The notes below the pieces were generated by a model that saw only the letters and a list, made by a program, of their open reading frames with translations, searched no databases and had not been told where the DNA came from. DNA of 64,000 nt from Sandarakinorhabdus limnophila DSM 17366. Its GTDB lineage: Bacteria > Pseudomonadota > Alphaproteobacteria > Sphingomonadales > Sphingomonadaceae. Positions 39,300 through 64,000 of the stretch are shown here, in pieces (position 1 is the first letter of the stretch; each line of letters starts with the position of its first letter). The stretch lies in assembly GCF_000420765.1 (NCBI RefSeq), contig NZ_ATVO01000010.1:62001-126000 (forward strand), given 5' to 3'. A program made the position numbers and the translations under genes.

Positions 39300-41500
<2,201 letters not shown>

Positions 41501-41767
41501 CGGCCCCGGGATTGGGATTGGGACTGGACGGCATGCCAGCGTGTCTTTCCTTGGGTTCCAAGCCACACACGATGTTTGATGGACCTTTGGACATCAACAA
41601 ATCAAGATCAGTGGCCCGATTTTCCAGCGCTGACTATGACGTCTGGCAACGGCAGGGCAACAGGCGATTGGCCCAAAGCGCCCGCGCTTGCCAATCCCCG
41701 CCGCATCGGCTTGAGTCAGAAGCACACACGCGGCCGGACCATTGCGGCGTTCGGCAGGGAGCAGGGG

Positions 41768-44740
41768 ATGAAGATGAAGCAGTTATTGTTCCGGGCCGTT
41801 CTTCTGGCCAGCCTTGCCGCCCTGCCCGCACCTGTTGCCGCGCAGGTACAGGATCCCGCACAATGGTCGGGGCTGCATTATCGCCAGGTGGGCCCGTGGC
41901 GCGGCGGGCGGGTGACAGCGGTCGCCGGTGTGCCCTCGCAGCCCGACACCTTCTACATGGGCACCACCGGCGGCGGCGTGTGGAAATCCACGGATTCGGG
42001 CAATAGCTGGACCAACACCAGCGATGGCCAGATCGGTGTCGCCTCCATGGGCGCGGTGGCGGTGGCCGACAGCAATCCCCAGATCGTCTATGCCGGCAGC
42101 GGCTCGTCGAAGATCCGCAGCAACGTCTCGATCGGGCGCGGCATCTGGAAATCGGTGGACGGCGCCAAGACGTGGGCGTTCATGGGCCTGCGCGACGTTG
42201 GCCAGATTTCGACCATCCGCATCAACCCGGCCAACCCTGATGAAGTGTTCGTGGCCAGCACCGGCAACCCCTTTGCCTATGGAAAGGATCGCGGCGTCTA
42301 TCGCACCCGCGACGGCGGCAAGACGTGGACCAAGGTTCTTTTCATCAACGAGACGCTGGGCGCCGCCGATCTGGAGATGGCGTCCGACGATCCGAAAACC
42401 CTTTATGCCGCCATGTGGCACGGCATCCGCCGGCCGTGGACCATCACCTCGGGCAGCAAGGATGGTGGCCTCTACAAGTCCGTGGACGGCGGCGATACGT
42501 GGACAAAGCTGGCCGGCGGCCTGCCCACTGGCTTGTTCGGCAGAGCCAATATCGGCGTGTCCGCCGCCGCGCCGAACCGGCTCTATGCTTTGATCGAAGC
42601 CAAGCCGGGCGCCGGCCTTTATCGTTCCGAGGATCGCGGCCTTACATGGGCGCTGGTTAATGGCGACGGCAAGCTGACGACGCGGCCATTTTACTACACG
42701 ACGCTGGGCGTGGACCCGAACAATGCCGAACAAGTGTTTGTCGGCAACGAGGATTGGTTCCGCTCCACCGATGGCGGCAAGACGTTCAAGGACGAGCCCA
42801 CCCCGCACGGCGACAACCACGATGTGTGGATCAACCCGAAGAACAGCAATCTGATCGTGCAGGCCAATGATGGCGGCGCCAATGTCTCGCGCGATGGCGG
42901 CCGCACCTGGACGGTGCAATCCAACCAGCCGACGGCTGAAATCTATCAGGTCGCAGTGGACAACCAGTTTCCCTATCGCCTCTATGGCGCGCAGCAGGAC
43001 AATTCGACGGTTATCCTGCCGTCGCAGCCGACGGGCAACGGCCAAGCCTATATGGAAGGGCCGGGCTGCGAAACCGGGCCGATCATCCCCAAGATCGATG
43101 ATCCGCTGATGGTGTGGGCCGGCTGCAAGGGCCAGTTCAGCCGGCTCGATCTGCGCACCAACCGCAACGAGCAGCAATACTGGATCGGGAGCGAATCGCT
43201 CTATGGGGCGAACCCCAAGGATCTGCGCTTCCGCTTCCAGCGCGTCGCGCCGCTGGAAGTGTCCCCGGTTGAGCCCAACACCGTCTATTACGGCTCCCAG
43301 CACGTGCACCGGTCGAAGGACGGCGGCGTCAATTGGGAGGTGATCAGCCCTGATCTCACCGCCAATCCGCCGGAAGGCCGGATGGCGTCGGGCGATCCGA
43401 TCACCATCGATGCGACCGGCGAGGAAGTTTATTCCACCGTCTATGCCATCCGCGAAAGCGCGGTGCAGCCGGGCTTGATCTGGGCCGGGTCGAACGATGG
43501 CCTGATCCACGTCACCCGCGATGGCGGCAAGACCTGGGTGAACGTCACGCCCAAGGGCCTGCCGCCGGGCGGGCGGGTGCAGAATATCGATCCCGGCGTG
43601 CGCTCTGCCGGCACGGCCTATGTGGCCTATCACCGTTATCTGCTCGGCGATTTCAGCCCCCACGCCTATCGCACCGATGATTATGGCAAGACGTGGGTGA
43701 GGATCACCACGGGCATTGCCGCCGATGAACCGGTGCGCGTGGTGCGCGAAGACCCGGTGCGGCCGGGGCTGCTCTACGCCGGCACCGAATTCGGCATGCA
43801 TGTCTCGTTCGACCGCGGCGCGCATTGGCAGAGCTTCCAGATCGATCTGCCGGCCACCCCCATAACCGATATCCGCCTGGCGCACGGCGATCTGGTGCTG
43901 TCGACGCAGGGGCGCGGTTTCTACATTCTCGACAATATCGATGTGCTGCGCCAGTTGCAGGGAACGACGATCACCGCGCCGCAGCTGCTGAAGCCGGTCA
44001 CCGCCGTGCGCGTGTCGCCATCGGCCGATTATGGCACCGATCCCGGCCAAGGCCCCGAATATCGCCCGCCCGGCGCGATGATCGATTATGTGCTGCCAGC
44101 CGGGACAACGGCGGTTTCCTTGAGCATCGTGGATGCCAGCGGTACGGAACTGCGCCGCTTCTCCAGCGACAGCCCGGCCGCGCGGGCGGCGCGGGGCTAT
44201 CGTTACCGGCCGGTGTGGCAGACCAAGCTGGATGCCACGCCCGGCATGCACCGCCTGATCTGGGATCTGCGCCGCGGCAATGATCGCGGCCCGCTGGTAC
44301 CGCCAGGCGACTATACAGTGGTGATGACGGCCGGCAGCACGACGACGCGCCAGCCGCTGACCGTGGTGGCCGATCCGCGCGTGCTGGCCAGCGGCGTCAC
44401 CAACGCCGATCTGGAGGCGCAATATCAGCATAATCTGCGCGTCGGGAAACTGGCGGCCGATACCGGCGCAGCCGCCACCCGCCTGCGCGCCGCGCTGAAG
44501 GACACGACTGATCCGGCGAAGCTGGCCGCGCTGAACCGCATTGCCGCCCGCCTGCTCACGCCGCCCGTGCGTTACAGCCCGCCCGGGCTCGACACGCATG
44601 TGCGCTATCTGGCCAGCCAAACGGCGGATTTCGATGGCAAGATCGGCAACCATCCCACGGAGCGGTACGCCGAACTGCGCGCCGCCATCGATGCCATCGT
44701 GAAGGAGCTCGACGTGGCGCTGGGGCCGGCCAGGGGTTGA
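41768..44740 (+). CDS. Secreted BNR/sortilin-like beta-propeller protein
   Basis: A 990-residue protein; ATG 41768 has GGGAG six bases upstream. Signal peptide residues 1-25 (MKMKQLLFRAVLLASLAALP, cleaved near VAAQV). It opens with HYRQVGPWRGGRVTAVAGVP and carries Asp-boxes KSTDSGNSW, KSVDGAKTW, RTRDGGKTW, KSVDGGDTW, RSEDRGLTW, HRSKDGGVNW, HVTRDGGKTW. The C-terminal region (MIDYVLPAGTTAVSLSIVDA, MHRLIWDLRRGNDRGPLVPP) is an Ig-like module shared with the paralogue at 34670. Probably periplasmic or extracellular; function unknown. Confidence 0.85.
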   Translation: MKMKQLLFRAVLLASLAALPAPVAAQVQDPAQWSGLHYRQVGPWRGGRVTAVAGVPSQPDTFYMGTTGGGVWKSTDSGNSWTNTSDGQIGVASMGAVAVADSNPQIVYAGSGSSKIRSNVSIGRGIWKSVDGAKTWAFMGLRDVGQISTIRINPANPDEVFVASTGNPFAYGKDRGVYRTRDGGKTWTKVLFINETLGAADLEMASDDPKTLYAAMWHGIRRPWTITSGSKDGGLYKSVDGGDTWTKLAGGLPTGLFGRANIGVSAAAPNRLYALIEAKPGAGLYRSEDRGLTWALVNGDGKLTTRPFYYTTLGVDPNNAEQVFVGNEDWFRSTDGGKTFKDEPTPHGDNHDVWINPKNSNLIVQANDGGANVSRDGGRTWTVQSNQPTAEIYQVAVDNQFPYRLYGAQQDNSTVILPSQPTGNGQAYMEGPGCETGPIIPKIDDPLMVWAGCKGQFSRLDLRTNRNEQQYWIGSESLYGANPKDLRFRFQRVAPLEVSPVEPNTVYYGSQHVHRSKDGGVNWEVISPDLTANPPEGRMASGDPITIDATGEEVYSTVYAIRESAVQPGLIWAGSNDGLIHVTRDGGKTWVNVTPKGLPPGGRVQNIDPGVRSAGTAYVAYHRYLLGDFSPHAYRTDDYGKTWVRITTGIAADEPVRVVREDPVRPGLLYAGTEFGMHVSFDRGAHWQSFQIDLPATPITDIRLAHGDLVLSTQGRGFYILDNIDVLRQLQGTTITAPQLLKPVTAVRVSPSADYGTDPGQGPEYRPPGAMIDYVLPAGTTAVSLSIVDASGTELRRFSSDSPAARAARGYRYRPVWQTKLDATPGMHRLIWDLRRGNDRGPLVPPGDYTVVMTAGSTTTRQPLTVVADPRVLASGVTNADLEAQYQHNLRVGKLAADTGAAATRLRAALKDTTDPAKLAALNRIAARLLTPPVRYSPPGLDTHVRYLASQTADFDGKIGNHPTERYAELRAAIDAIVKELDVALGPARG

Positions 44741-44788
44741 GGCAAACCCGCTGTTGTGCGCCGGGCGGCTTTGGGGGATATCGCGGCC

Positions 44789-47700
44789 ATGACTGGCCCT
44801 GCCCCCTTTGCTGCCTTCGCCCCTGCCCTGTCTCCCGCCACGCCGTTACGGCAACGCATATCCGCCGCCTGCCGCACGCCGGAGCCCGAGGCGGTCGCGG
44901 CCCTGCTGCCGCTGGCCGAACTGCCGGCCGCCTTGCGCCCGAGCGTGGCCGCCACGGCTCGCGCGCTCGTCACAGCCTTGCGTGCCAAGGGCCAGCAGGG
45001 CGGCGTGGAAGGCCTGGTGAAGGAATATTCGCTGTCCAGCCAGGAAGGCGTGGCGTTGATGTGCCTGGCCGAAGCCCTGCTGCGCATTCCGGACAATGAA
45101 ACCCGCGACGCGCTGATCCGCGACAAGATCGCCGGCGGCGACTGGCAGGCGCATCTGGGCGACGGCAAGACGCTGTTTGTCAACGCCGCCACTTGGGGCC
45201 TGATGGTGACCGGCAAGCTGACAGCGAGCTTTGCCGAAACCGGGCTGGGCGCGGTTCTCACCCGGCTCATCGCGCGCGCCGGCGAACCGGTGATCCGCCG
45301 CGGCATCGACATGGCGATGCAGATGATGGGCGATCAGTTCGTTACCGGCGAAACCATCGAGGAAGCGCTGAAACGCGCCCGCCGGCTGGAAGCGCAGGGC
45401 TTTGCCTACAGTTATGACATGCTGGGCGAAGCCGCGACCACCATGGCCGATGCGAACCGCTATTTCGCCGATTATGAGCACGCCATCCACGCCATCGGCG
45501 CGGCGGCAGCCGGGCGCGGCCTGTATGATGGCCCCGGCATCTCGATCAAATTGTCGGCCCTGCACCCGCGCTATGCCCGCGCGCAACTTGACCGCGTGGT
45601 GGCCGAACTACTGCCGCGCGTGGCGGCGCTGGCCGAGTTTGCCAAGGGCTATGGCATCGGCTTCAACATCGATGCCGAAGAAGCCGACCGGCTGGAACTG
45701 TCGCTCGATCTGCTGGAAGCGCTGGCGTTGTCGCCGGTGCTGAAGGGCTGGGACGGCCTGGGTTTCGTGGTACAGGCCTATGGCAAGCGCTGCCCGTTGG
45801 TGATCGACTGGCTGATCGATCTGGCCCGCCGCAGCGGCCGGCGGATCATGGTGCGGCTGGTGAAAGGCGCTTATTGGGACAGCGAGATCAAGCGCGCCCA
45901 GGTGGATGGCCTCAGCGATTTCCCGGTGTTTACGCGCAAGCTGCACACCGATGTGTCTTACCTTGCCTGCGCCGCCAAACTGCTCGGCGCCCGCGATGCG
46001 GTGTTCCCGCAGTTCGCCACCCACAATGCCCACACGCTGGCCGCCATTCACACAATGGCCGGCCCGGATTTTGCCGTGGGCAGTTACGAATTCCAGTGCC
46101 TGCACGGCATGGGTGAGGCGCTGTATGAAGAGGTGGTGGGGCCGGACAAGCTGAACCGCCCGTGCCGCATCTATGCGCCGGTGGGCACCCACGAAACATT
46201 GCTGGCCTATCTGGTGCGGCGCCTGCTGGAAAACGGCGCCAACAGCAGCTTCGTCCACCGCATCTGGGATGAGGCTGTCTCCATTGAGGAACTGATTGCC
46301 GATCCGGTCGAGGAAGCCCGCGCACTGGGCGGCAGCCCGCACCCGGTCATCGCCCTGCCCGCCGCCATTTATGGCCAGCGGTGCAATTCGAGCGGGATCG
46401 ATCTCGCTAGCGAGCCGGCACTGGCCGCGCTTGCCGCGCGCCTGCAGGAAAGCGTGCAGCGGGACTGGACGGCAGCGCCGCTGATTCCGGGGCATATTTC
46501 CAGCGCCAGCCACGTGCCGGTGTGCAACCCGGCTGGCCGCAGCGATACCGTTGGCACGGTCGCATTTGCAACACTGGCCGATGTTGATCGGGCTGCCCAA
46601 TCTGCCGCGCAGGCAGTCCCGTCATGGTCCGCCGTTCCGGTCACCCAGCGCGCGGCGATGCTGGACGCGGCGGCTGACCGGCTGGAAGACGACATGCCGC
46701 TGCTGATGGGGCTGATCATTCGCGAAGCCGGCAAATCCGCCGCCAACGCCATTGCCGAAGTGCGCGAAGCGGTGGATTTCCTGCGCTACTATGCCGATCA
46801 GGCCCGCCAGACGCTCGACACCACCCACAACCCGCTCGGCCCGGTGCTGTGCATCAGCCCGTGGAATTTCCCGCTGGCCATCTTCATCGGCCAAGTCGCC
46901 GCGGCGCTGGTGGCGGGCAACGGTGTTATCGCCAAGCCGGCCGAAGAAACCCCGCTGATCGCCGCCGAAGCCGTGCGCATCCTGCACGCGGCCGGCGTGC
47001 CAGCCGAGGCGCTGCTGTTTATGCCCGGCGACGGCAGTATCGGCGCAGCATTGGTCGCGCGGCCGGAAATTGCCGGCGTGATGTTCACCGGCTCCACCGA
47101 AGTGGCCAAGCTGATACAGGCCGAACTGGCCCGCCATGGCGATCACCCGATCCCGCTGATCGCCGAAACCGGCGGCCAAAACGCGATGATCGTCGACAGT
47201 TCTGCCCTATCCGAACAGGTCACCGCCGATGTGATCGCGTCGGCGTTCGATTCTGCCGGCCAGCGCTGTTCGGCGTTGCGCATCCTGTGCCTTCAGGAGG
47301 ATATTGCCGACAAGCAATTGGCCATGCTCAAGGGTGCGCTCATTGAGCTGCGGTTGGGCAATCCTGATCGGCTGCGCATCGATATCGGGCCGGTGATCAC
47401 CGCCGAAGCGCAGGCCACCATCACCGCCCATATCGAACGCATGCGTGGCCTTGGTTGCCGCATCCACCAGCTGCCCCTGCCCGCCGAGGCCGCCCACGGC
47501 AGCTTCGTGCCACCCACCATCATCGAGATCGACAGCATCGCCCAGATCGGCCGCGAAGTGTTCGGGCCTGTCTTGCATGTCGTCCGTTTCCCGCGCGACG
47601 CCATGGCCGCGCTGGTCGATGCCATCAACGCCACCGGCTATGGCCTCACCTTCGGCCTGCACACGCGGCTGGATGAAACCATCGAAGCCGTCACAGCCAA

Positions 47701-48412
47701 GGCCGCCGCCGGCAACATCTATATCAACCGCAACATCATTGGCGCGGTGGTGGGCGTGCAGCCCTTTGGCGGGCGCGGCCTGTCGGGCAGCGGTCCCAAG
47801 GCTGGTGGGCCGATCTATATCGGACGGCTGGTGCAGTCGGAACCCAACACCGGACTTGCAGGTGGCCACGCGCCCGACCCGGCTGCGGTCGCCTGGGCGG
47901 AATGGCTGGAGGCCTCCAGCCTCGACGCCAGCGCCGCATTGGTGCGCGAGGCCATCGCCGGCGCCTTGACCGGCCTCAAGTTGGAACTGCCCGGACCGGT
48001 CGGCGAAACCAACCTTTATGCCCTCCACCCCCGCGGGCTTGTGCTGCTGATACCCGCCACCGAAGCCGGCCTTGCCGTTCAGGTCGGCGCAGCGCTCGCA
48101 GGCGGCAACAGCGCCGCCATCGTCTGGCCGGGCGGGCCGCCATCCGCCTTTGCCAGCGTGCCAGCACTGGTCAGCCAGCGGCTGACCTGGCTGCCGGATT
48201 TGCCCGCAACCGCCGATTGCGCCGCCGCGCTGGTCGAAGCCGTAACGCCCGGACTGCTGCCGCGGCTCGCCGCAATGGCCGGGCCGATCCCCATCGTGCA
48301 GCTCGTCGATGCAAGCGGCCGCTATCGCCGCGACTGGCTGGTGGAGGAAGTATCGACGTCGATCAACGTCACCGCGGCTGGCGGCAATGCCAGCCTGATG
48401 GCGATGGTCTGA
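44789..48412 (+). CDS. putA: Bifunctional proline dehydrogenase / glutamate semialdehyde dehydrogenase
   Basis: A 1207-residue PutA without the N-terminal ribbon-helix-helix DNA-binding domain. The PRODH barrel is about 160-500: GPGISIKLSALHPRYARAQL, VRLVKGAYWDSEIKRAQ, THNAHTLAAIHTMAG. The aldehyde dehydrogenase domain (about 560-1000) has SPWNFPLAIFIGQVAAALVA, VMFTGSTEVAKLI and nucleophile Cys827 in SAGQRCSALRIL. The last 200 residues are the degenerate ALDH-like oligomerisation domain. It turns proline into glutamate with channelling. ATG 44789 is weakly supported by a distant GGGGGA. The stop overlaps the next gene's start. Confidence 0.94.
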   Translation: MTGPAPFAAFAPALSPATPLRQRISAACRTPEPEAVAALLPLAELPAALRPSVAATARALVTALRAKGQQGGVEGLVKEYSLSSQEGVALMCLAEALLRIPDNETRDALIRDKIAGGDWQAHLGDGKTLFVNAATWGLMVTGKLTASFAETGLGAVLTRLIARAGEPVIRRGIDMAMQMMGDQFVTGETIEEALKRARRLEAQGFAYSYDMLGEAATTMADANRYFADYEHAIHAIGAAAAGRGLYDGPGISIKLSALHPRYARAQLDRVVAELLPRVAALAEFAKGYGIGFNIDAEEADRLELSLDLLEALALSPVLKGWDGLGFVVQAYGKRCPLVIDWLIDLARRSGRRIMVRLVKGAYWDSEIKRAQVDGLSDFPVFTRKLHTDVSYLACAAKLLGARDAVFPQFATHNAHTLAAIHTMAGPDFAVGSYEFQCLHGMGEALYEEVVGPDKLNRPCRIYAPVGTHETLLAYLVRRLLENGANSSFVHRIWDEAVSIEELIADPVEEARALGGSPHPVIALPAAIYGQRCNSSGIDLASEPALAALAARLQESVQRDWTAAPLIPGHISSASHVPVCNPAGRSDTVGTVAFATLADVDRAAQSAAQAVPSWSAVPVTQRAAMLDAAADRLEDDMPLLMGLIIREAGKSAANAIAEVREAVDFLRYYADQARQTLDTTHNPLGPVLCISPWNFPLAIFIGQVAAALVAGNGVIAKPAEETPLIAAEAVRILHAAGVPAEALLFMPGDGSIGAALVARPEIAGVMFTGSTEVAKLIQAELARHGDHPIPLIAETGGQNAMIVDSSALSEQVTADVIASAFDSAGQRCSALRILCLQEDIADKQLAMLKGALIELRLGNPDRLRIDIGPVITAEAQATITAHIERMRGLGCRIHQLPLPAEAAHGSFVPPTIIEIDSIAQIGREVFGPVLHVVRFPRDAMAALVDAINATGYGLTFGLHTRLDETIEAVTAKAAAGNIYINRNIIGAVVGVQPFGGRGLSGSGPKAGGPIYIGRLVQSEPNTGLAGGHAPDPAAVAWAEWLEASSLDASAALVREAIAGALTGLKLELPGPVGETNLYALHPRGLVLLIPATEAGLAVQVGAALAGGNSAAIVWPGGPPSAFASVPALVSQRLTWLPDLPATADCAAALVEAVTPGLLPRLAAMAGPIPIVQLVDASGRYRRDWLVEEVSTSINVTAAGGNASLMAMV

Positions 48413-56288: not shown

Positions 56289-56852
56289 ATGGCCGGTCGG
56301 CGGATCGACGATGAAAGGCGCGATGAAACTCTGGCAGCCTTCGAAGCCTGCGTGGTGCGCAAAGGCTTCGCAAAGACCACGTTAAGCGATGTTGCCGAAG
56401 CGGCGGGTCAACCGCGGCCCTTGGTCCGCTATTTTATCGGCAACCGCGCCGACATGGTGAGCGCGCTGATCGATCGGCTGCTCGAACGCGGCGAGGCTCA
56501 ATTTCGGCAACTGCCCAAGGATGGATCAGCCGGTCAAGCGCTCGACATCGTGCTCGACCAGATCTTTGCCGACGATACGACGAACATCGTGATTATGGAG
56601 CTTTGGCAATTGTCGCTGCGCGATGCTGCGCTGCGTGCGCGGTTGGCCGCGATCTATGACCGAGTAATCTTCGAGATAGCGGCGCTGATCGACGGGCCTG
56701 ATCCACGGGACCGCGCATTCTCTGCTGTCGCCATGGCATTCGGAGCAACCTTTTTCCGGCATTTGGGGCTCTGCCCGATGAATGCCGAGCATGTGCGCAG
56801 GGCATCTCACCGACTGCTCAGTGTCGACGATTTAATACTTAAAGGAGCTTAG
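56289..56852 (+). CDS. TetR-family transcriptional regulator
   Basis: A 187-residue protein with an AAGGAGG ribosome site. The N-terminal HTH is KGFAKTTLSDVAEAAGQPRP followed by LVRYFIGNRADMV, the TetR_N consensus. The C-terminal ligand domain (about 75-187) is of unknown specificity. It lies four bases upstream of the serine hydrolase and probably regulates it and itself through the palindrome at 56251-56266. Confidence 0.92.
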   Translation: MAGRRIDDERRDETLAAFEACVVRKGFAKTTLSDVAEAAGQPRPLVRYFIGNRADMVSALIDRLLERGEAQFRQLPKDGSAGQALDIVLDQIFADDTTNIVIMELWQLSLRDAALRARLAAIYDRVIFEIAALIDGPDPRDRAFSAVAMAFGATFFRHLGLCPMNAEHVRRASHRLLSVDDLILKGA

Positions 56853-56856
56853 TCAC

Positions 56857-58026
56857 ATGACACAAGTGAACATGATTGAGCTAGCGCTCTTCACCGGACA
56901 GGCACAATATGGCAATTTCTGCCGATACAAGGACATCCTGCCCGTTTCATGCATGGCTGCATCTTCCGCGCCATACGCATTTGCCGATGGTCCTGCAATC
57001 GCTCTACCAAAAACCTACAGGTTCGAGGGGGAGGAAAAATCTACCGAGGCCTTTCTGGCGGACACCGACACATCTGCCGTACTGGTTCTGAAGGACGGCG
57101 CTGTCGTGCACGAGCTTTACCGCCTGACAGGCGGGCGCGATGTGCAGTGGATTAGTTGGTCTGTAGCCAAGAGCTTCATCTCGGCGCTCGTGGGCATAGC
57201 CTTGGCTGATGGCGCAATCCGCAGCATCGATGAAGCAATTAGCGACTATGTCACCGTCGAGCCGGGTTCTGCCTATGATGGCGTCAGCATCAGGGATGTG
57301 CTGCAAATGTCATCGGGCGCGCGATGGAGTGAGGATTACTCAGACCCCGGGTCCGATGTGATGCGGCTGGGCGCGACCATGGCGGGTGTGATGACGCTCG
57401 ACACGTTCGTCGCGACCATGGTGCCGGAATCCAAGCCAGGCACTGTGTGTCGCTACAACAGCGGCGAAACGCAGGCGCTGGGCGCACTGCTGGTCAAGGC
57501 GACGGGTCGTTCGCTGACAGATTACATGCATGAAAAGCTGGTCGAGCCCCTCGGCTTTGAAGCGGATGCTTATTGGCTAGTTGACGGGACGGGCATGGAA
57601 ATGGCCTTTGGCGGGCTAAACATGACCGCGCGCGATTTCGCCAAGCTGGGCGAGTTGTACAGGAATAGCGGACTGTTGAACCGGCGACAAATTGTGCCGG
57701 AAGACTGGGTCAAAGCCTCGCTGCGCGCAGATGCGCCACACCTGCAACCGGGCCAGCCGATCCTCGCCGATCACAGCTTCGACCTGGGCTATGGTTATCA
57801 ATGGTGGCTGCCCGATGGTGAGCGGGGCGAGTTCAGCGCGATCGGCATCTACAATCAGCTCGTCTATGTTGATCCGTCGCGCGGGGTGACCATCGTCAAG
57901 CTCTCAGCCAATCCGGCCTACGGCACTACCATGGAAGAGGGCACCAACCGCGAGCTGGAAAACATAGCTTTGCTGCGAGCCATCGCCGCTGCGTTTGACA
58001 CAATCCCGACTACGCCATTGGCGTAG
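56857..58026 (+). CDS. Serine hydrolase, class C beta-lactamase fold
   Basis: A 389-residue protein of the EstB/6-aminohexanoate-dimer hydrolase type. The nucleophile motif S-x-x-K is ISWSVAKSFISALVGIAL, the Tyr motif is RYNSGETQALGALLVKATGR, and GYGYQWWLPDGERGEFSAIG is the third block. The N-terminus has an odd start (MTQVNMIELALFTGQAQYGN) before a possible signal-like stretch (PVSCMAASSAPYAFA), so the start is uncertain. It could cleave esters or small amides; it is not an obvious antibiotic resistance enzyme. Coupled to the TetR gene. Confidence 0.85.
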   Translation: MTQVNMIELALFTGQAQYGNFCRYKDILPVSCMAASSAPYAFADGPAIALPKTYRFEGEEKSTEAFLADTDTSAVLVLKDGAVVHELYRLTGGRDVQWISWSVAKSFISALVGIALADGAIRSIDEAISDYVTVEPGSAYDGVSIRDVLQMSSGARWSEDYSDPGSDVMRLGATMAGVMTLDTFVATMVPESKPGTVCRYNSGETQALGALLVKATGRSLTDYMHEKLVEPLGFEADAYWLVDGTGMEMAFGGLNMTARDFAKLGELYRNSGLLNRRQIVPEDWVKASLRADAPHLQPGQPILADHSFDLGYGYQWWLPDGERGEFSAIGIYNQLVYVDPSRGVTIVKLSANPAYGTTMEEGTNRELENIALLRAIAAAFDTIPTTPLA

Positions 58027-58519: not shown

Positions 58520-58610
58520 TGGCGGAGCGGGAGGGATTCGAACCCTCGATGAGCTTTTGACCCATACACACTTTCCAGGCGTGCGCCTTCGACCACTCGG
58601 CCACCGCTCC
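58520..58610 (-). tRNA. tRNA-Ser(GGA)
   Basis: Minus-strand acceptor GGAGCGG (58604-58610) pairs with CCGCTCC (58524-58530), followed by discriminator G and encoded CCA. D-arm TGGCCGAGTGGTCGAAGGC, anticodon loop CTGGAAA (anticodon GGA), long variable arm as in class II tRNAs, and T-arm GAGGGTTCGAATCCCTC are all present. Intact. Confidence 0.97.
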
Positions 58611-59294: not shown

Positions 59295-62200
59295 GTGCGT
59301 ACTCTAGTTCAGAATTTTGGTGTGCGAGTCGCCGATGCACGGTGCCTCGTCTCGCCCCGTGTTGCCCTGCTTTCTGGCGTATTCCTTTCTTTTACATTGC
59401 TTGCCGCAGCGTCGTCACTTGGCGCTCCAAAACTCCCGTTGTCTGACGTGGAAGCCCGTGCAGCACAATCCTGCGCCGACGCCGCCGTGACAAAGGGCAA
59501 AATGGCCGGCAAGCAGGCATCATCCAACTGCGCAGACGCCAGCGTAGGCAAGACTGTGCCTTCGAATGGTTCAAGCACGCAAAACCAGCCAGCGTTGGCA
59601 ACGCAACTGGTCGAGACGATCTTGGGCGAGCGCTGCGTGGCGCAGGAACGCCCTGAAGCCCCGGCATCCCGATTGCTTCCTCATGATCTGAGCATCACAT
59701 GCGAAGGCGTCGCGGTCGGGAGCCTGAGCTATTCCCTCATGTCGACCAGCGCAGGCAGTTTGGCAGATGTGTTTCGGTCGAGCCGTCAATTTGTGTCGAT
59801 GGGATCCAAACTCGATTGTGAACCGCCAAAATCTCTGACTGCTGGCGATGCACAAGGGGGTGTCCTCGCGTTCCCCTGTCGGCACCGGCGGGATGGTTGG
59901 CCAACCTTGGTGATGGTGAGTGCAGCTTCCAATGTGCTGCGCGTTGCTGAAGGTCCAGCATCGGCCTATCCCGTCCTGCGCCAATTGTCGGGATTGGAAG
60001 CTTCGACAACCTCGAGAACGCAGCAAGCAGAACAAGTCCGCTCGCTTTGGTCTACCCCGATCGCCATCGGCAGCGCGGCGGAGAAAGAGAAAATCGCAGG
60101 CTATCTGAGCAATGCGCGTGCGTCTGCTGGACAGTCTGCCTTTGCGGCTGCCGAACGAGAATTTCGCAAGGCGCTGGAACTGCAAGTCCGCCTCTATGGC
60201 GAAGACGATATGGCGACGAACGATGTGTTGCTGGACCTTGCAGTCACCGTCAGCAATCAGGGACGCCATGACGAAGCCGAGGCCTTGATCCGGCGCGCCG
60301 CTCCGATCGTGGAAAAGTCCCCCAAGCCTGCAGACCGCGCGCGCATGAGTGGGTATCAGGCCTTTGTCGCCGCCAATAAGGGGGGCTTTGAAGAAGCGCT
60401 GGTGCTCGCACGCGCGGCGGCGGCGCAATGGCGCGATATCGTCGCGCAAGCCGCGGGCACGGGTTCGCGATCCTTGTCGCAATTGCCGGGCATGACCAAT
60501 GGGTTCGAAGCTGAACTGGCCATGGCGCTGAACCTGGAAGCAGGAATGTTGCTGCGCACTGGCGACGTCACCGGCGCCTATGCCAGTGCCGCCGAGGCTG
60601 CTCTGATCATCAAGCGCGTTGATGGTGAGCCATCGTGGTGGGAAAGCGATACGCTTGTCACGCTTGGCAACGTGAGCAGCGCACAGGGCCGCCTTTCAGC
60701 AGCCGAAGCCTATCTCAAGAAAGCGATAGACCTGCGCAAACAGGCCTTTGGGGAAGGATTGGCCACCCTTCAGGCGCGCGTCGCACTTGGGCGGGCCTAT
60801 CAGGCTGAGCATATGAATGTTTCGGCCATCATTGTGTTTCGCGAAGCAATCGCGATTGCAAAGACATTGCCAAGAGACACGGCTCCGATCCGTGCAGACG
60901 ACATCATTCCGTTTGCCGAAGCCGTTGTTGAGGAAGCGGCACGCTACAGCGACCCTTCGGCAAAGCTTGGTCTGTTCACCGAGGTGTTCGATGCCTTTCA
61001 AATGGTCAGTTCCCCGGTTTTTGACCGGACAATGGCCCTGACGTCGGCGCGGTTATCGACACAAACGCCGGGACTTTCAGATCTGCTGCAACGCCTGGAT
61101 AGCGCAATGCAGAAGGAAGCTGGGCAGCGTCTGCAACTGGCAACCGAGCAAGCCCGATCAGTTGAGGACCGCAGCGCAGAAGCCGAAGAACAATATTCGA
61201 CCGAGATTACGGCGCAGGGCAAAATCATCGCCGAAGTGCGTAAAAACATCGTCGACAAGTTTCCCGATTTTTCGTCTCTGACCGATGCAAAGGGCCCGAA
61301 TTTGGACCAGCTGCGCGGGCGTCTTGGTGTTGATGAAGGGATGCTTGTTTACCTTGTTGGGAAAAAGACATCATTCGTCCAGCTTGTAACCAGGAACAAG
61401 ACCATAGTTGCACCGGTTCCCGTTGGAAGCGCAGCACTCGAGACGGTTGTGGCGCGCCTGAGGCGCGGCCTGGAGATCGAAGGGTCATCAGTCAATGATT
61501 TTGACTTGGATGCTGCACATGGTTTGTATCAAGAACTTTTTGCCGGATTGAAAGACGAGATCGCCGACTTAAAGCGGCTTGTGATTGTTCCGGCAGGGGC
61601 ATTGGCCAATCTGCCATTTGGGGTACTGGTAACGAAGCCGCCCGCGCTCGGCCAATATGTTTCAGCCCATTGGCTGACCAATGATTTTGATATTTCCTAT
61701 AGTCCGACGATCACCTCCTTTGTGAATTTGCGATCGACGCGCTCTGTCGGCCAGCATGCCCGCAAATTGCTTGCTGTGGGCAATCCGGTGCTGGCACCGC
61801 TGCAACGGGTCGCGGCACAGGAAGCTGCGTTCGCCAGCGTAATCAGCAGCTGCCAGTCGGGCGACATCATCCCGCCAGCATTGCTCCGCTCGCTTGCCTC
61901 CCTTCCGGATACGGCCAACGAAATTTATAATGTTTCCAAAGCGCTGGGTGGAAACGCAAGCGATATTCTTTTGGGCGGGCAGGCAACCGAACCCACGCTG
62001 CGCGAGCGCAATCTGGCTGATTATCGAATTCTGTATTTCGCGACACATGGCCTCTTGCCCGGGGAAATCCGCTGCCAATCGCAGCCCGGGATCGTGCTGA
62101 CGCCGCCAAGCGAACCGGCAGAAACCCATTTTGGCGATGGACTTTTTGACGCGAGTGAGATCGCAGCCTTGCCGATGACGGCCGATCTGGTTGTGCTGTC

Positions 62201-62519
62201 GGCCTGCAACACGGCGGCTTCCGGGAAGGCTGATGGCGGGCAGTCGCTGTCTGGCCTGGCAGCCTCATTCTTTCGGGCTGGCGCAAAGAGCCTGCTGGTG
62301 AGTCACTGGCAGGTGCCTTCGGCGGCGACTGGCGCACTTATGTCGTCCATGTTCGCTACCCTTTCCAAGACCCCGAACATGTCCGTTGATACGGCCTTGC
62401 GAACAGCCCAATTGAGCCTTTCGAAGGCCCCCGGATTTGCGCACCCGTTCTTCTGGGCGGCATTTGTCTTGATGGGTGACGGCGCCATAAAGCCCCTTGA
62501 TGAAGAACAGCGCCAATGA
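59295..62519 (+). CDS. Secreted TPR-CHAT caspase-like protein
   Basis: A 1074-residue protein from GTG 59295 (start uncertain; no clear ribosome site). A signal-like segment VALLSGVFLSFTLLAAASSL spans about 23-42. A Cys-containing variable region follows, then TPR-type repeats (about 270-520: FAAAEREFRKALELQVRLYG, QGRHDEAEALIRRA, QGRLSAAEAYLKKAIDLRKQ), a helical linker, and a C-terminal CHAT domain (about 750-1065). The catalytic dyad is His918 (YFATHGLLPG) and Cys971 (VVLSACNTAASG); VSHWQVPSAATG and HPFFWAAFVLMGDG complete the fold. CHAT proteins are separase/caspase-like proteases; substrate unknown. First gene of a three-gene operon. Confidence 0.9.
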   Translation: MRTLVQNFGVRVADARCLVSPRVALLSGVFLSFTLLAAASSLGAPKLPLSDVEARAAQSCADAAVTKGKMAGKQASSNCADASVGKTVPSNGSSTQNQPALATQLVETILGERCVAQERPEAPASRLLPHDLSITCEGVAVGSLSYSLMSTSAGSLADVFRSSRQFVSMGSKLDCEPPKSLTAGDAQGGVLAFPCRHRRDGWPTLVMVSAASNVLRVAEGPASAYPVLRQLSGLEASTTSRTQQAEQVRSLWSTPIAIGSAAEKEKIAGYLSNARASAGQSAFAAAEREFRKALELQVRLYGEDDMATNDVLLDLAVTVSNQGRHDEAEALIRRAAPIVEKSPKPADRARMSGYQAFVAANKGGFEEALVLARAAAAQWRDIVAQAAGTGSRSLSQLPGMTNGFEAELAMALNLEAGMLLRTGDVTGAYASAAEAALIIKRVDGEPSWWESDTLVTLGNVSSAQGRLSAAEAYLKKAIDLRKQAFGEGLATLQARVALGRAYQAEHMNVSAIIVFREAIAIAKTLPRDTAPIRADDIIPFAEAVVEEAARYSDPSAKLGLFTEVFDAFQMVSSPVFDRTMALTSARLSTQTPGLSDLLQRLDSAMQKEAGQRLQLATEQARSVEDRSAEAEEQYSTEITAQGKIIAEVRKNIVDKFPDFSSLTDAKGPNLDQLRGRLGVDEGMLVYLVGKKTSFVQLVTRNKTIVAPVPVGSAALETVVARLRRGLEIEGSSVNDFDLDAAHGLYQELFAGLKDEIADLKRLVIVPAGALANLPFGVLVTKPPALGQYVSAHWLTNDFDISYSPTITSFVNLRSTRSVGQHARKLLAVGNPVLAPLQRVAAQEAAFASVISSCQSGDIIPPALLRSLASLPDTANEIYNVSKALGGNASDILLGGQATEPTLRERNLADYRILYFATHGLLPGEIRCQSQPGIVLTPPSEPAETHFGDGLFDASEIAALPMTADLVVLSACNTAASGKADGGQSLSGLAASFFRAGAKSLLVSHWQVPSAATGALMSSMFATLSKTPNMSVDTALRTAQLSLSKAPGFAHPFFWAAFVLMGDGAIKPLDEEQRQ

Positions 62520-63322
62520 AGCGTGGCACCAGCCTTGGTCTGCTCGTGGGCGGTCTCATGATCGCTTCACAGTCCCTCGCGGCTCCGATGATCGTCGTCG
62601 AAGCGCGAGGCGCTGGTCTTCGACCGGGCATGCGCCTGGACAGCGCGGCAACAATTGATCTGAAGGACGGGGAACGCGTTACCCTTATTGGTGCTGACGG
62701 TCAGGCTGTAACGCTGCGCGGGACCTATGCGGGCGTGCTGACGAAGGCTGGTGGCGCAAGCCAGAATCCTCGGCTTGCGCTTGCCGCACTCATTTCAACG
62801 CGAAACGACCGTGCAAGCAAAGTCGGGGCGATCCGGTCCGGTGCAAATGCCGCGCCGCTGCCAGATCCGTGGCTCATCGATGTTTCAAGATCGGGTGCGC
62901 GCTGTATTCGCGAGGGCCAGCGACCCATTTGGTGGCGGCCTGACGGTTCTGGGGAGACGAAGTTCACTGTCTATCCGATCGACCGCTCGTGGCGCGCCGA
63001 TTTTGTGTGGCAAAAGGGGCAGACCCAAATGGCCGCGCCCGATCTTGCCAAGCTGGATGGTGTAAAAACCTTTCTCATCCAGGTGCCCGGGCAAGATAAC
63101 GCCATCAGTCTCAATGTCATCCCCGCTGATGTCGTCGATCCTCTCGTCCTGAGTTCCTGGATGCTTGAGAAGGCCTGCGTGCAGCAGGCCGATGCATATT
63201 TTCGCCAGATCCAATCGAATATCGATGGGCAAGGCGCTGCGCCTCTCCAAGTTTTAAGCCGTGACACCCCAGAAGTAACGACGCCTGCGCCAATGGTCGA
63301 CGCTGGGAAGGCGCCGCAATGA
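62516..63322 (+). CDS. Secreted protein, FecR-like N-terminal strand region
   Basis: A 268-residue protein overlapping the CHAT stop by 4 bases. Signal peptide residues 1-22 (RGTSLGLLVGGLMIASQSLA). The first part (LRPGMRLDSAATIDLKDGER, VTLIGADGQAVTLRGTYAGV) resembles the FecR-type beta module (paG..l..g..v.L...dG..v.L.G). The middle and C-terminal parts are unrecognised and contain two Cys (ARCIREGQRP, EKACVQQADAYF). Its position between CHAT and CHASE2 genes suggests a periplasmic partner; this is inference. Confidence 0.75.
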   Translation: MKRGTSLGLLVGGLMIASQSLAAPMIVVEARGAGLRPGMRLDSAATIDLKDGERVTLIGADGQAVTLRGTYAGVLTKAGGASQNPRLALAALISTRNDRASKVGAIRSGANAAPLPDPWLIDVSRSGARCIREGQRPIWWRPDGSGETKFTVYPIDRSWRADFVWQKGQTQMAAPDLAKLDGVKTFLIQVPGQDNAISLNVIPADVVDPLVLSSWMLEKACVQQADAYFRQIQSNIDGQGAAPLQVLSRDTPEVTTPAPMVDAGKAPQ

Positions 63323-64000
63323 GCAAGGCGCAGAAGCAGGCGTTGTCCGCAGCCCTGATCGCCATTTTTGCTGCGGTGGCTGCCATTTGTGCGGTGCGCT
63401 TTCTGGCGCCGCTGACAAACCTTGAGAACAAGGTGGCCGACATTCGCGTCGCCGCAATGCAGCCAGCGATAGCGCCCTCAAATGACATTGTGGTGGTCGC
63501 GATCAATGAAGATACGTTGACCGCCTTCCCGTATCGCTCGCCGGTTGACCGTGGCTTTCTGGCCGATGTTATCAGCCAAGTGTCGGCAAAGGGAGCACGG
63601 GTAATCGGCGTCGACATTATCATCGACCAGCCGACAGAGGCCACAAAGGACGCACGTCTCAAGCAGGTCCTGGCGACGACGCCGACACCGCTTTTTGTAA
63701 GTTACACCTCTTCCCCAAATATTGTGACCCCTGAACAATTGGCCTTTCTCAATGATTTTGTTCCTGCAAATCAACGGGCAGAGGCAAATTTGCTGTCGGA
63801 TCCATTTGATACACTGATCCGCAGGATCAATCCTGGTGGCGAACTGAAAAATGGCCGCATGGTGGACACGGCCAGTCACCCTGCTGGCTTTGTTCGGAAG
63901 GCCGTCACGCTCTTTGGTGGCACGGCGCCACTTACGCCCGTCGAGATTGCGTGGCGCCCTCGCCCTGACGCGGAAAGCCTGCCCTTTCCATCCTTCCCCG
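63319..64000 (+). CDS. CHASE2-domain sensor protein, partial (runs off the window)
   Basis: The frame opens at ATG 63319, overlapping the previous stop by 4 bases, and stays open for 227 codons to the edge. TM1 is about residues 9-31 (LSAALIAIFAAVAAICAVRF). LTNLENKVADIRVA, IVVVAINEDTLTAFPYRSPV and GARVIGVDIIIDQPT are hallmarks of the extracytoplasmic CHASE2 sensor domain. CHASE2 proteins normally continue with three TM helices and a cyclase, kinase or diguanylate cyclase output domain, which lies outside the window. Confidence 0.88.
   Translation, partial: MSKAQKQALSAALIAIFAAVAAICAVRFLAPLTNLENKVADIRVAAMQPAIAPSNDIVVVAINEDTLTAFPYRSPVDRGFLADVISQVSAKGARVIGVDIIIDQPTEATKDARLKQVLATTPTPLFVSYTSSPNIVTPEQLAFLNDFVPANQRAEANLLSDPFDTLIRRINPGGELKNGRMVDTASHPAGFVRKAVTLFGGTAPLTPVEIAWRPRPDAESLPFPSFP

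Follow-up and report, generated by a model that had tools for sequence, protein, structure and literature searches.

In the genome of Sandarakinorhabdus limnophila DSM 17366 (2.61 Mb), a gene encoding a TPR-CHAT protein opens an operon at the right-hand end of the 64,000-nucleotide stretch of DNA analyzed here (the window), which corresponds to positions 62001-126000 of contig C10. An original prediction, made from the window alone, had placed three genes at this locus, joined by two 4-base overlaps, and both the open reading frames (ORFs) and the overlaps were verified (Table 1). The operon extends further than that prediction had supposed: when it was read 8.6 kb beyond the window edge (stretch L002, in which position p corresponds to window position p+58999), two further genes, tpsB and tpsA, were found, giving the order CHAT – middle protein – CHASE2-adenylate cyclase – TpsB – TpsA, with overlaps between genes through tpsA. 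Because the operon runs past the sensor gene into tpsB and tpsA, the trio in the window represents the first three of five genes, and the unit is firmly identified as a two-partner secretion (TPS, type Vb) operon with a caspase-fold peptidase and a cyclic AMP (cAMP) sensor. Its parts appear to be of known kinds in a new combination, and surface export by this TPS operon is predicted. The earlier idea of a signalling module holds insofar as genes for a periplasmic protein and a membrane sensor accompany that of a probably exported peptidase; the name "envelope stress module" was given with the last two genes out of sight, and is replaced by that of a TPS operon.

Table 1. Features of the operon, in window coordinates unless marked L002 (aa, amino acids)
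Feature	Position	Strand	Remarks
TPR-CHAT protein	59295..62519	+	1074 aa, GTG start; putative periplasmic caspase-fold cysteine peptidase, TPS-linked subfamily
Predicted Sec signal peptide of CHAT protein	59295..59426	+	aa 1-44, cut after ...SSLGA; heuristic, cut site by eye
CHAT domain	61512..62480	+	aa 740-1062; Pfam
Predicted catalytic His918 codon	62046..62048	+	from sequence; invariant 30/30 and 121/121
Predicted catalytic Cys971 codon	62205..62207	+	from sequence; invariant 30/30 and 121/121
Middle protein	62516..63322	+	268 aa; predicted signal peptide, N-terminal beta domain, Ig-like domain, C-terminal helices
CHASE2-adenylate cyclase	63319..64000, cut by window edge	+	complete product 654 aa; gene end at L002 6284 = window-equivalent 65283
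TpsB	L002 6274-7983 = window-equivalent 65273-66982		POTRA_2, ShlB; start overlaps cyclase gene
TpsA	L002 7983->13652, window-equivalent from 66982; off contig end		TPS secretion domain, PATR and YDG repeats

Proteins encoded by the operon

The CHAT protein matched the Pfam families PF12770 (CHAT; E = 9e-56, 189.8 bits against a cut-off of 24) and TPR_12 (PF13424; E = 1e-18, above the cut-off). The His918/Cys971 dyad, earlier described as intact, was unbroken in all 30 aligned homologues and at all 121 family loci described below, and by the clan CD criteria of domain and dyad the protein is a predicted caspase-fold peptidase. A profile of the CHAT protein compared with the PDB sequences (E ≤ 0.01) yielded matches to the TPR region only and none to the CHAT region. 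An N-terminal Sec-type signal peptide was visible in both the CHAT and the middle protein of the window. Such peptides were called with a home-made heuristic, not a trained predictor, which was positive for 58/63 TPS-type CHATs, 46/55 other CHATs of the family, 1/3 short CHATs and 33/33 middle-family proteins, as against 0/25 cytosolic controls at annotated starts (2/25 when start codons anywhere within the first 60 codons were allowed); it was negative for two near relatives of the window CHAT, those of L036 and L032, whose starts are uncertain. These results agree with the original prediction, in which export of the CHAT and middle proteins had been suggested. The CHAT protein is probably sent to the periplasm, and the four Cys residues of its N-terminal domain, kept in 29-30 of the 30 homologues, would suit an oxidising compartment. 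A second TPR-CHAT set, comprising 53 family loci without this N-terminal domain (e.g., L048, L066 and L085), is mostly exported-looking; it has no widely common neighbour, and a large protein that is FecR-like by eye was seen at 5/53 of these loci.

The middle protein contains two invariant Cys residues (130 and 221), and the structure predicted for it (Table 1) appears to resemble MtxA in architecture. The label "FecR-like" was rejected, since the window protein gave no match in Pfam and FecR (PF04773) matched 0/33 family members at E ≤ 1; searched against PDB sequences, a profile of the middle protein gave a best match of only E = 0.45. The output domain of the CHASE2 sensor, which had been cut by the window edge, proved upon extension of the sequence to be a class III adenylate cyclase. 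The complete product matched CHASE2 (PF05226; E = 7e-33) and class III cyclase (PF00211; E = 1e-20), the best PDB matches of the cyclase domain were adenylate cyclases, and the active-site residues were assigned by eye. In the window the middle gene precedes the cyclase gene, as mtxA precedes a CHASE2-adenylate cyclase gene in Magnetospirillum (PMC4439547; this and the other papers are cited from excerpts), whereas most relatives have the cyclase gene first.

Tandem duplicates of the middle protein were observed in the operons of L049 (5648-7322) and L074 (12533-14359). In Azospirillum oryzae (L283, 10989-15605), genes for a secreted-looking hypothetical protein, an adenylate cyclase and ShlB lie in a row with no annotated CHAT; the hypothetical protein was considered as a relative of the middle protein and dismissed for want of an HMM match. 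A conserved upstream Crp gene, an idea taken from Sphingobium herbicidovorans, was likewise abandoned, as phmmer over the family and the named loci gave one match, on the opposite strand (L200). On a Sphingobium plasmid, an annotated gene for the cAMP phosphodiesterase CpdA (L289, 4614-5462) and a solitary gene of TpsB type are ~8 kb apart.

TpsB matched POTRA_2 (PF08479; E = 8e-20) and the ShlB/FhaC barrel (PF03865; E = 2e-21), and TpsA, whose gene overlaps tpsB by one base, matched the TPS secretion domain (PF05860; E = 5e-24). The assembly break falls within the YDG repeats of tpsA. The repeats resume at the start of contig C5 (L288, 1-1662), which most likely holds the missing end of TpsA, and the C5 protein carries the C-terminus ...SGTPGVDTRYSIVGSPIG. 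At the start of contig C3 of the same genome (G000) lies a further frame, of 1737 aa, with a match to the YDG part. The genome also has a second gene of TpsB type (G000:C7:212755-213606), with no CHAT match in its vicinity.

Linkage of CHAT and TPS genes

PF12770 was present in 74/149 genomes of the family. Stretches of up to 20 kb were taken around the best 120 other matches and combined with L002, giving 121 loci out of 143 rows, from which weaker and fragmentary PF12770 rows were excluded. HMMs iterated from the window genes detected TpsB at 51 of these loci (three of them, L034, L079 and L091, being short CHATs with weak TpsB scores), the TpsA N-terminus at 47, the CHASE2-cyclase at 30 and the middle protein at 31. 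The middle protein was found at all 30 cyclase loci, so that the co-occurrence of the trio, which the original prediction had proposed to look for among homologues, was borne out. The N-terminal domain of the window CHAT marks 63 loci, with L079 and L091 set aside. At 14 of the 63, no TPS gene was initially in view, and 13 of these had a same-strand ORF of 2295-2481 aa leaving the stretch just upstream of CHAT. Upstream extension of 12 of those 13, and of L149, revealed TpsB in 13/13, with a frame of 2759-7555 aa between TpsB and CHAT; because the TPS-domain HMM matched this frame at only 5/13 extended loci, the others were called TpsA by position and size. In the final count, TPS genes adjoin 61/63 CHATs with the N-terminal domain, or 62/63 with L054, where the locus is cut by the contig and CHAT follows a giant ORF bearing the tail motif described below.

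The gene order varies. The commonest is CHAT-cyclase-middle-TpsB-TpsA, and CHAT-middle-cyclase-TpsB-TpsA (that of the window), CHAT-TpsB-TpsA, TpsB-TpsA-CHAT and TpsB-TpsA-CHAT-cyclase-middle were also found. CHAT and TPS genes occur without the sensor pair at 21 strong family loci and, after extension, at 11 more, which indicates that the steady partner of CHAT is the secretion system; the cyclase and middle protein, being present at only part of the loci, are likely to be a regulatory add-on.

A tree was built by a quick search from 191 CHAT domains of 201 loci; the 10 loci whose domain match did not reach 220 residues were dropped. One side of the tree held 79 rows, none TPS-linked, and the other 112 rows, 92 of them TPS-linked (SH-aLRT 93); of the 20 unlinked rows on the latter side, several were at contig ends or after giant ORFs. 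The TPS-link label changed 12 times on the tree as against 63.7 times in shuffles, none of 500 being as low, a clustering that near-copies favour. Linkage was also examined in wider samples. In a draw of 142 genomes from the class (G000 and G091 set aside), 15 genomes contained both CHAT and TpsB, and in 8/15 the pair lay within 30 kb (6/8 on one strand), where 0.7 pairs were expected. In a draw of 249 genomes from the phylum (own family set aside), 11 pairs were found in 9/35 genomes among the matches listed, 9/11 of them on one strand, where 1.8 were expected.

Named examples of CHAT-TPS loci were found in Burkholderiaceae, Niveispirillum, Reyranella, Phenylobacterium, Acidocella and Neoroseomonas, and on pMSHV of Sphingobium herbicidovorans. 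In strain MH of the latter, a soil sphingomonad, the genes on this plasmid are arranged as CHAT-CHASE2-hypothetical-ShlB-hypothetical (TpsA), and the TpsA carries the majority tail described below. The CHAT-ShlB-FHA operons of Caballeronia (L279 and L293) lie inside type VI secretion clusters. On a plasmid of the cyanobacterium Leptolyngbya boryana, CHAT begins 5 bases past an FHA-type gene with a TPS domain; two other cyanobacterial CHAT regions were examined, and neither had an annotated TPS gene. As a whole, the CHAT–TPS pairing recurs in Alpha- and Betaproteobacteria, with one cyanobacterial case. No TPS gene was present within the stretches examined for the CHATs of Bradyrhizobium, Methylobacterium, Agrobacterium and Aminicenantes. 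In Ruegeria conchae (L292, 19206-21140), a C14 caspase-family gene is located directly 3′ of an FHA-type TpsA gene; its product has Sel1 repeats and no TPR match, and type VI secretion and further caspase-family genes are nearby. On a Pseudosulfitobacter plasmid (L278, 1482-11404), CHAT genes are clustered with genes for patatin, caspase-family and serine protease proteins.

The C-terminal tail of TpsA

The 41 complete TpsAs of the family are 1418-7555 aa long, and 35 of them end in a conserved tail, for which the majority consensus, common to most of the family, is IDEPVTGxGNxxLW. A Cys pair is located 63-155 residues before the end in 39/41. The tail was described from a discovery set of 30 complete TpsAs, frame L099 being excluded as a likely wrong frame, and its regular expression was fixed before further loci were fetched. 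It matched 28/30 of the discovery set and, at 15 further loci, 8 of the 12 C-termini seen, the remaining four being close variants by eye, against a background of 62/12300 internal windows and 35/12300 shuffled tails (0.3-0.5% per window). L081, L082 and L120, in which the C-terminus was cut in this test, gave tail matches in the later genome search.

For that search, a tail model of 24 positions was run over the 149 genomes (E ≤ 1e-3). It produced 62 matches, of which 55 were within 30 kb of a CHAT gene and on the same strand, 5 were on other contigs of fragmented genomes, and 2 were in short frames elsewhere. A tail match was found near 53/65 CHAT-linked TpsB genes and within 30 kb of 1/77 unlinked ones, in that one case in a 109-aa frame. 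Since the TpsAs used to train the model were CHAT-linked, its specificity is partly a matter of lineage and offers no independent proof. As to a sortase-like sorting signal common to several substrates, the matches lay in large frames save for three short ones (G142:C1:1871078-1871125, 109 aa; G074:C1:2496137-2496187, 281 aa; G114:C1:145943-145999, 252 aa), each of them perhaps an additional substrate, a gene fragment or a chance match. By eye, the tail is absent from the TpsAs of L268 and of Methylosinus, Azospirillum ramasamyi and Comamonas, for which the stretches showed no CHAT annotation; all of these belong to other TpsA families. Of the eight no-CHAT stretches used as controls, L268 alone contained a single long TpsA that included its C-terminus, those in L271 and L274 were cut, L269 had one in pieces and four had none; the other control TpsAs were taken from plasmids.

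The tail of the window TpsA looked by eye like the majority tail, but this identification was rejected, because the majority model gives it no score. Within the window clade, shuffles scored as high as the real tail under the majority model in 39/200 cases for M036 and 117/200 for M033, and only M032 and L192 beat all 200. On these grounds, separate tail dialects were retained. A model of the clade's own conserved tail (TPGxDxxYSxxG...) was assessed by leave-one-out, in which 8/9 tails beat 500/500 shuffles and L187 beat 485/500; these shuffles ignore relatedness.

Proposed processing of the tail and alternative explanations

That a probably exported CHAT protein is encoded with a TpsA bearing a conserved tail behind a Cys pair suggests that CHAT processes the tail. 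In the general form of this mechanism, which we hold to be about as probable as improbable, the CHAT peptidase would trim or release a periplasmic tail of TpsA. A narrower form, in which CHAT is a dedicated type Vb C-terminal processing peptidase that cuts a lineage-specific periplasmic tail under the control of the MtxA-like protein and the CHASE2-cyclase, is proposed only tentatively and is rather doubtful. In the general mechanism, the TPR-CHAT peptidase would be exported to the periplasm by Sec, as would the MtxA-like middle protein, and the giant TpsA would be threaded to the surface by TpsB. In most family relatives, a disulfide-closed TpsA C-terminus would be held in the TpsB pore with the short conserved tail in the periplasm; CHAT would dock through its TPRs and its Cys-containing N-terminal domain and cut or remove the tail, whereby the exoprotein would be matured or released. 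The middle protein and the CHASE2 domain may sense the state of the process and set the cAMP output of the cyclase.

The C-termini of HMW1/HxuA-type TpsAs (HMW1/HMW1B and HxuA/HxuB of Haemophilus) are locked in the pore by a disulfide loop, with their ends expected in the periplasm (PMC5422565), and the Cys pair of 39/41 family TpsAs is similar to this arrangement. The excerpted text of that paper mentions no linked peptidase, unlike the window operon, and in it maturation-protease genes are apparently outside TPS operons. In Bordetella, FhaB/FhaC with DegP, CtpA and SphB1 is likewise a system in which the C-terminal prodomain of a TPS exoprotein is protease-trimmed for maturation or release, DegP and periplasmic CtpA processing the prodomain of FhaB (PMC8263021). 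DegP is a serine peptidase, as is SphB1 (subtilisin type), whereas the operon described here encodes a predicted caspase-fold cysteine peptidase. Among TPR-CHAT proteins, Csx29 is cytoplasmic. Csx29, of type III-E CRISPR systems, shares TPR, CHAT and a His/Cys dyad with the window protein and is a proven endopeptidase that makes one cut in its substrate, but it is the RNA-activated partner of Cas7-11, unlike the window CHAT (PMC10028731).

Several observations weigh against tail processing by CHAT. Export looks general among the CHATs of this family and is not TPS-specific, so that export alone is no evidence for a TPS function. At L058, the sole exception to the linkage, CHAT, cyclase and middle protein are present without nearby TPS genes, and one of the five tail matches on other contigs, that of G018, is in a genome (85% complete) where CHAT found no match. 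The training of the tail model on CHAT-linked TpsAs belongs here as well, as do the 12/65 linked TpsB genes without a nearby tail match, which comprise 4 of window type, 3 with short-type CHATs and 5 others (4 on small or broken contigs, and G047 with a match just over the threshold). The two complete window-type TpsAs are the 2/41 without a Cys pair, the window's own tail, TPGVDTRYSIVGSPIG, is unmatched by the majority model, and its clade has a separate conserved tail. The TpsA ends of Acetobacteraceae, Caballeronia and Leptolyngbya differ again, and the role given to the cyclase is pure inference.

CHAT might instead serve in the periplasm mainly as a TPR-based chaperone or adaptor, holding on to TpsA or to the POTRA domains, with a secondary peptidase activity, for example in the quality control of stalled exoproteins. 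The large TPR region, the need for periplasmic handling of such long TPS cargoes, and the degradation of HMW1 and FhaB by DegP when secretion is impeded (PMC5422565) are consistent with this idea; the intact dyad at 121/121 loci, and the Ruegeria caspase beside TpsA, with its Sel1 repeats and no TPR match, argue against it, and we regard it as somewhat unlikely. It is also unlikely that TpsB recognises the tail as a C-terminal anchor and that CHAT cuts elsewhere or has another protein as its target. The position of tails beyond the Cys pair, like that of the HMW1/HxuA anchor, and of window-clade tails at the extreme C-terminus would suit an anchor, but a tail match accompanies just 1/77 TpsB genes without a CHAT neighbour, and the TpsAs of Methylosinus, Azospirillum ramasamyi, Comamonas and L268 lack the tail, though these are of other TpsA families.

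A more distant proposal is that of a signalling or self-destruct module, in which a CHAT effector triggered by an envelope threat would cut proteins of the cell and the TPS would be the threat sensor or a cargo. Its precedents are the function of CHAT in CRISPR immunity (Csx29; PMC10028731) and the occurrence of CHAT proteins among putative targets of conflict systems (PMC10907252), and the Caballeronia and Ruegeria copies adjoin type VI secretion genes. Given that CHAT is apparently exported, that 21 strong family loci have CHAT and TPS only, and that the five operon proteins contain no other effector domain in Pfam (padloc was not searched), this appears quite improbable. The notion that an independent three-gene envelope sensor operon merely precedes a TPS operon finds a parallel in the mtxA and CHASE2-cyclase pair of magnetic bacteria (PMC4439547) and in the L058 trio without nearby TPS; it is disfavoured to the point of being scarcely credible, because the genes overlap through tpsA and the linkage holds at 62/63 loci across rearranged orders.

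Among the titles listed, literature searches found no description of CHAT with TPS/hemagglutinin or CHASE2 genes, and prior mention elsewhere is possible. An operon that unites a caspase-fold peptidase, a tailed exoprotein and a cAMP-making sensor offers an explanation, open to test, of the maturation or shedding of such surface proteins. In the LapA/LapG/LapD system, a giant adhesin is released by a periplasmic cysteine protease that is controlled by a cyclic-nucleotide membrane protein. If the narrower form of tail processing by CHAT is correct, giant adhesins would be released or locked on by cAMP signalling, which would make the system a caspase-fold analogue of those of sortase and LapG type. 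The operon would also give an extracytoplasmic role to CHAT proteins, for which the excerpts describe a role in CRISPR immunity (Csx29; PMC10028731).

Upstream of the operon, at a distance of 0.7 kb, the window contains a tRNA-Ser (GGA) gene (58520-58610, minus strand), where an island junction is possible. A weak TetR-type match (56289-56852) directly precedes a gene for a beta-lactamase-fold (PF00144) protein (56857-58026), and farther away lie genes for a Vps10/BNR-repeat protein (41432-44740) and proline utilisation A (PutA; 44756-48412).

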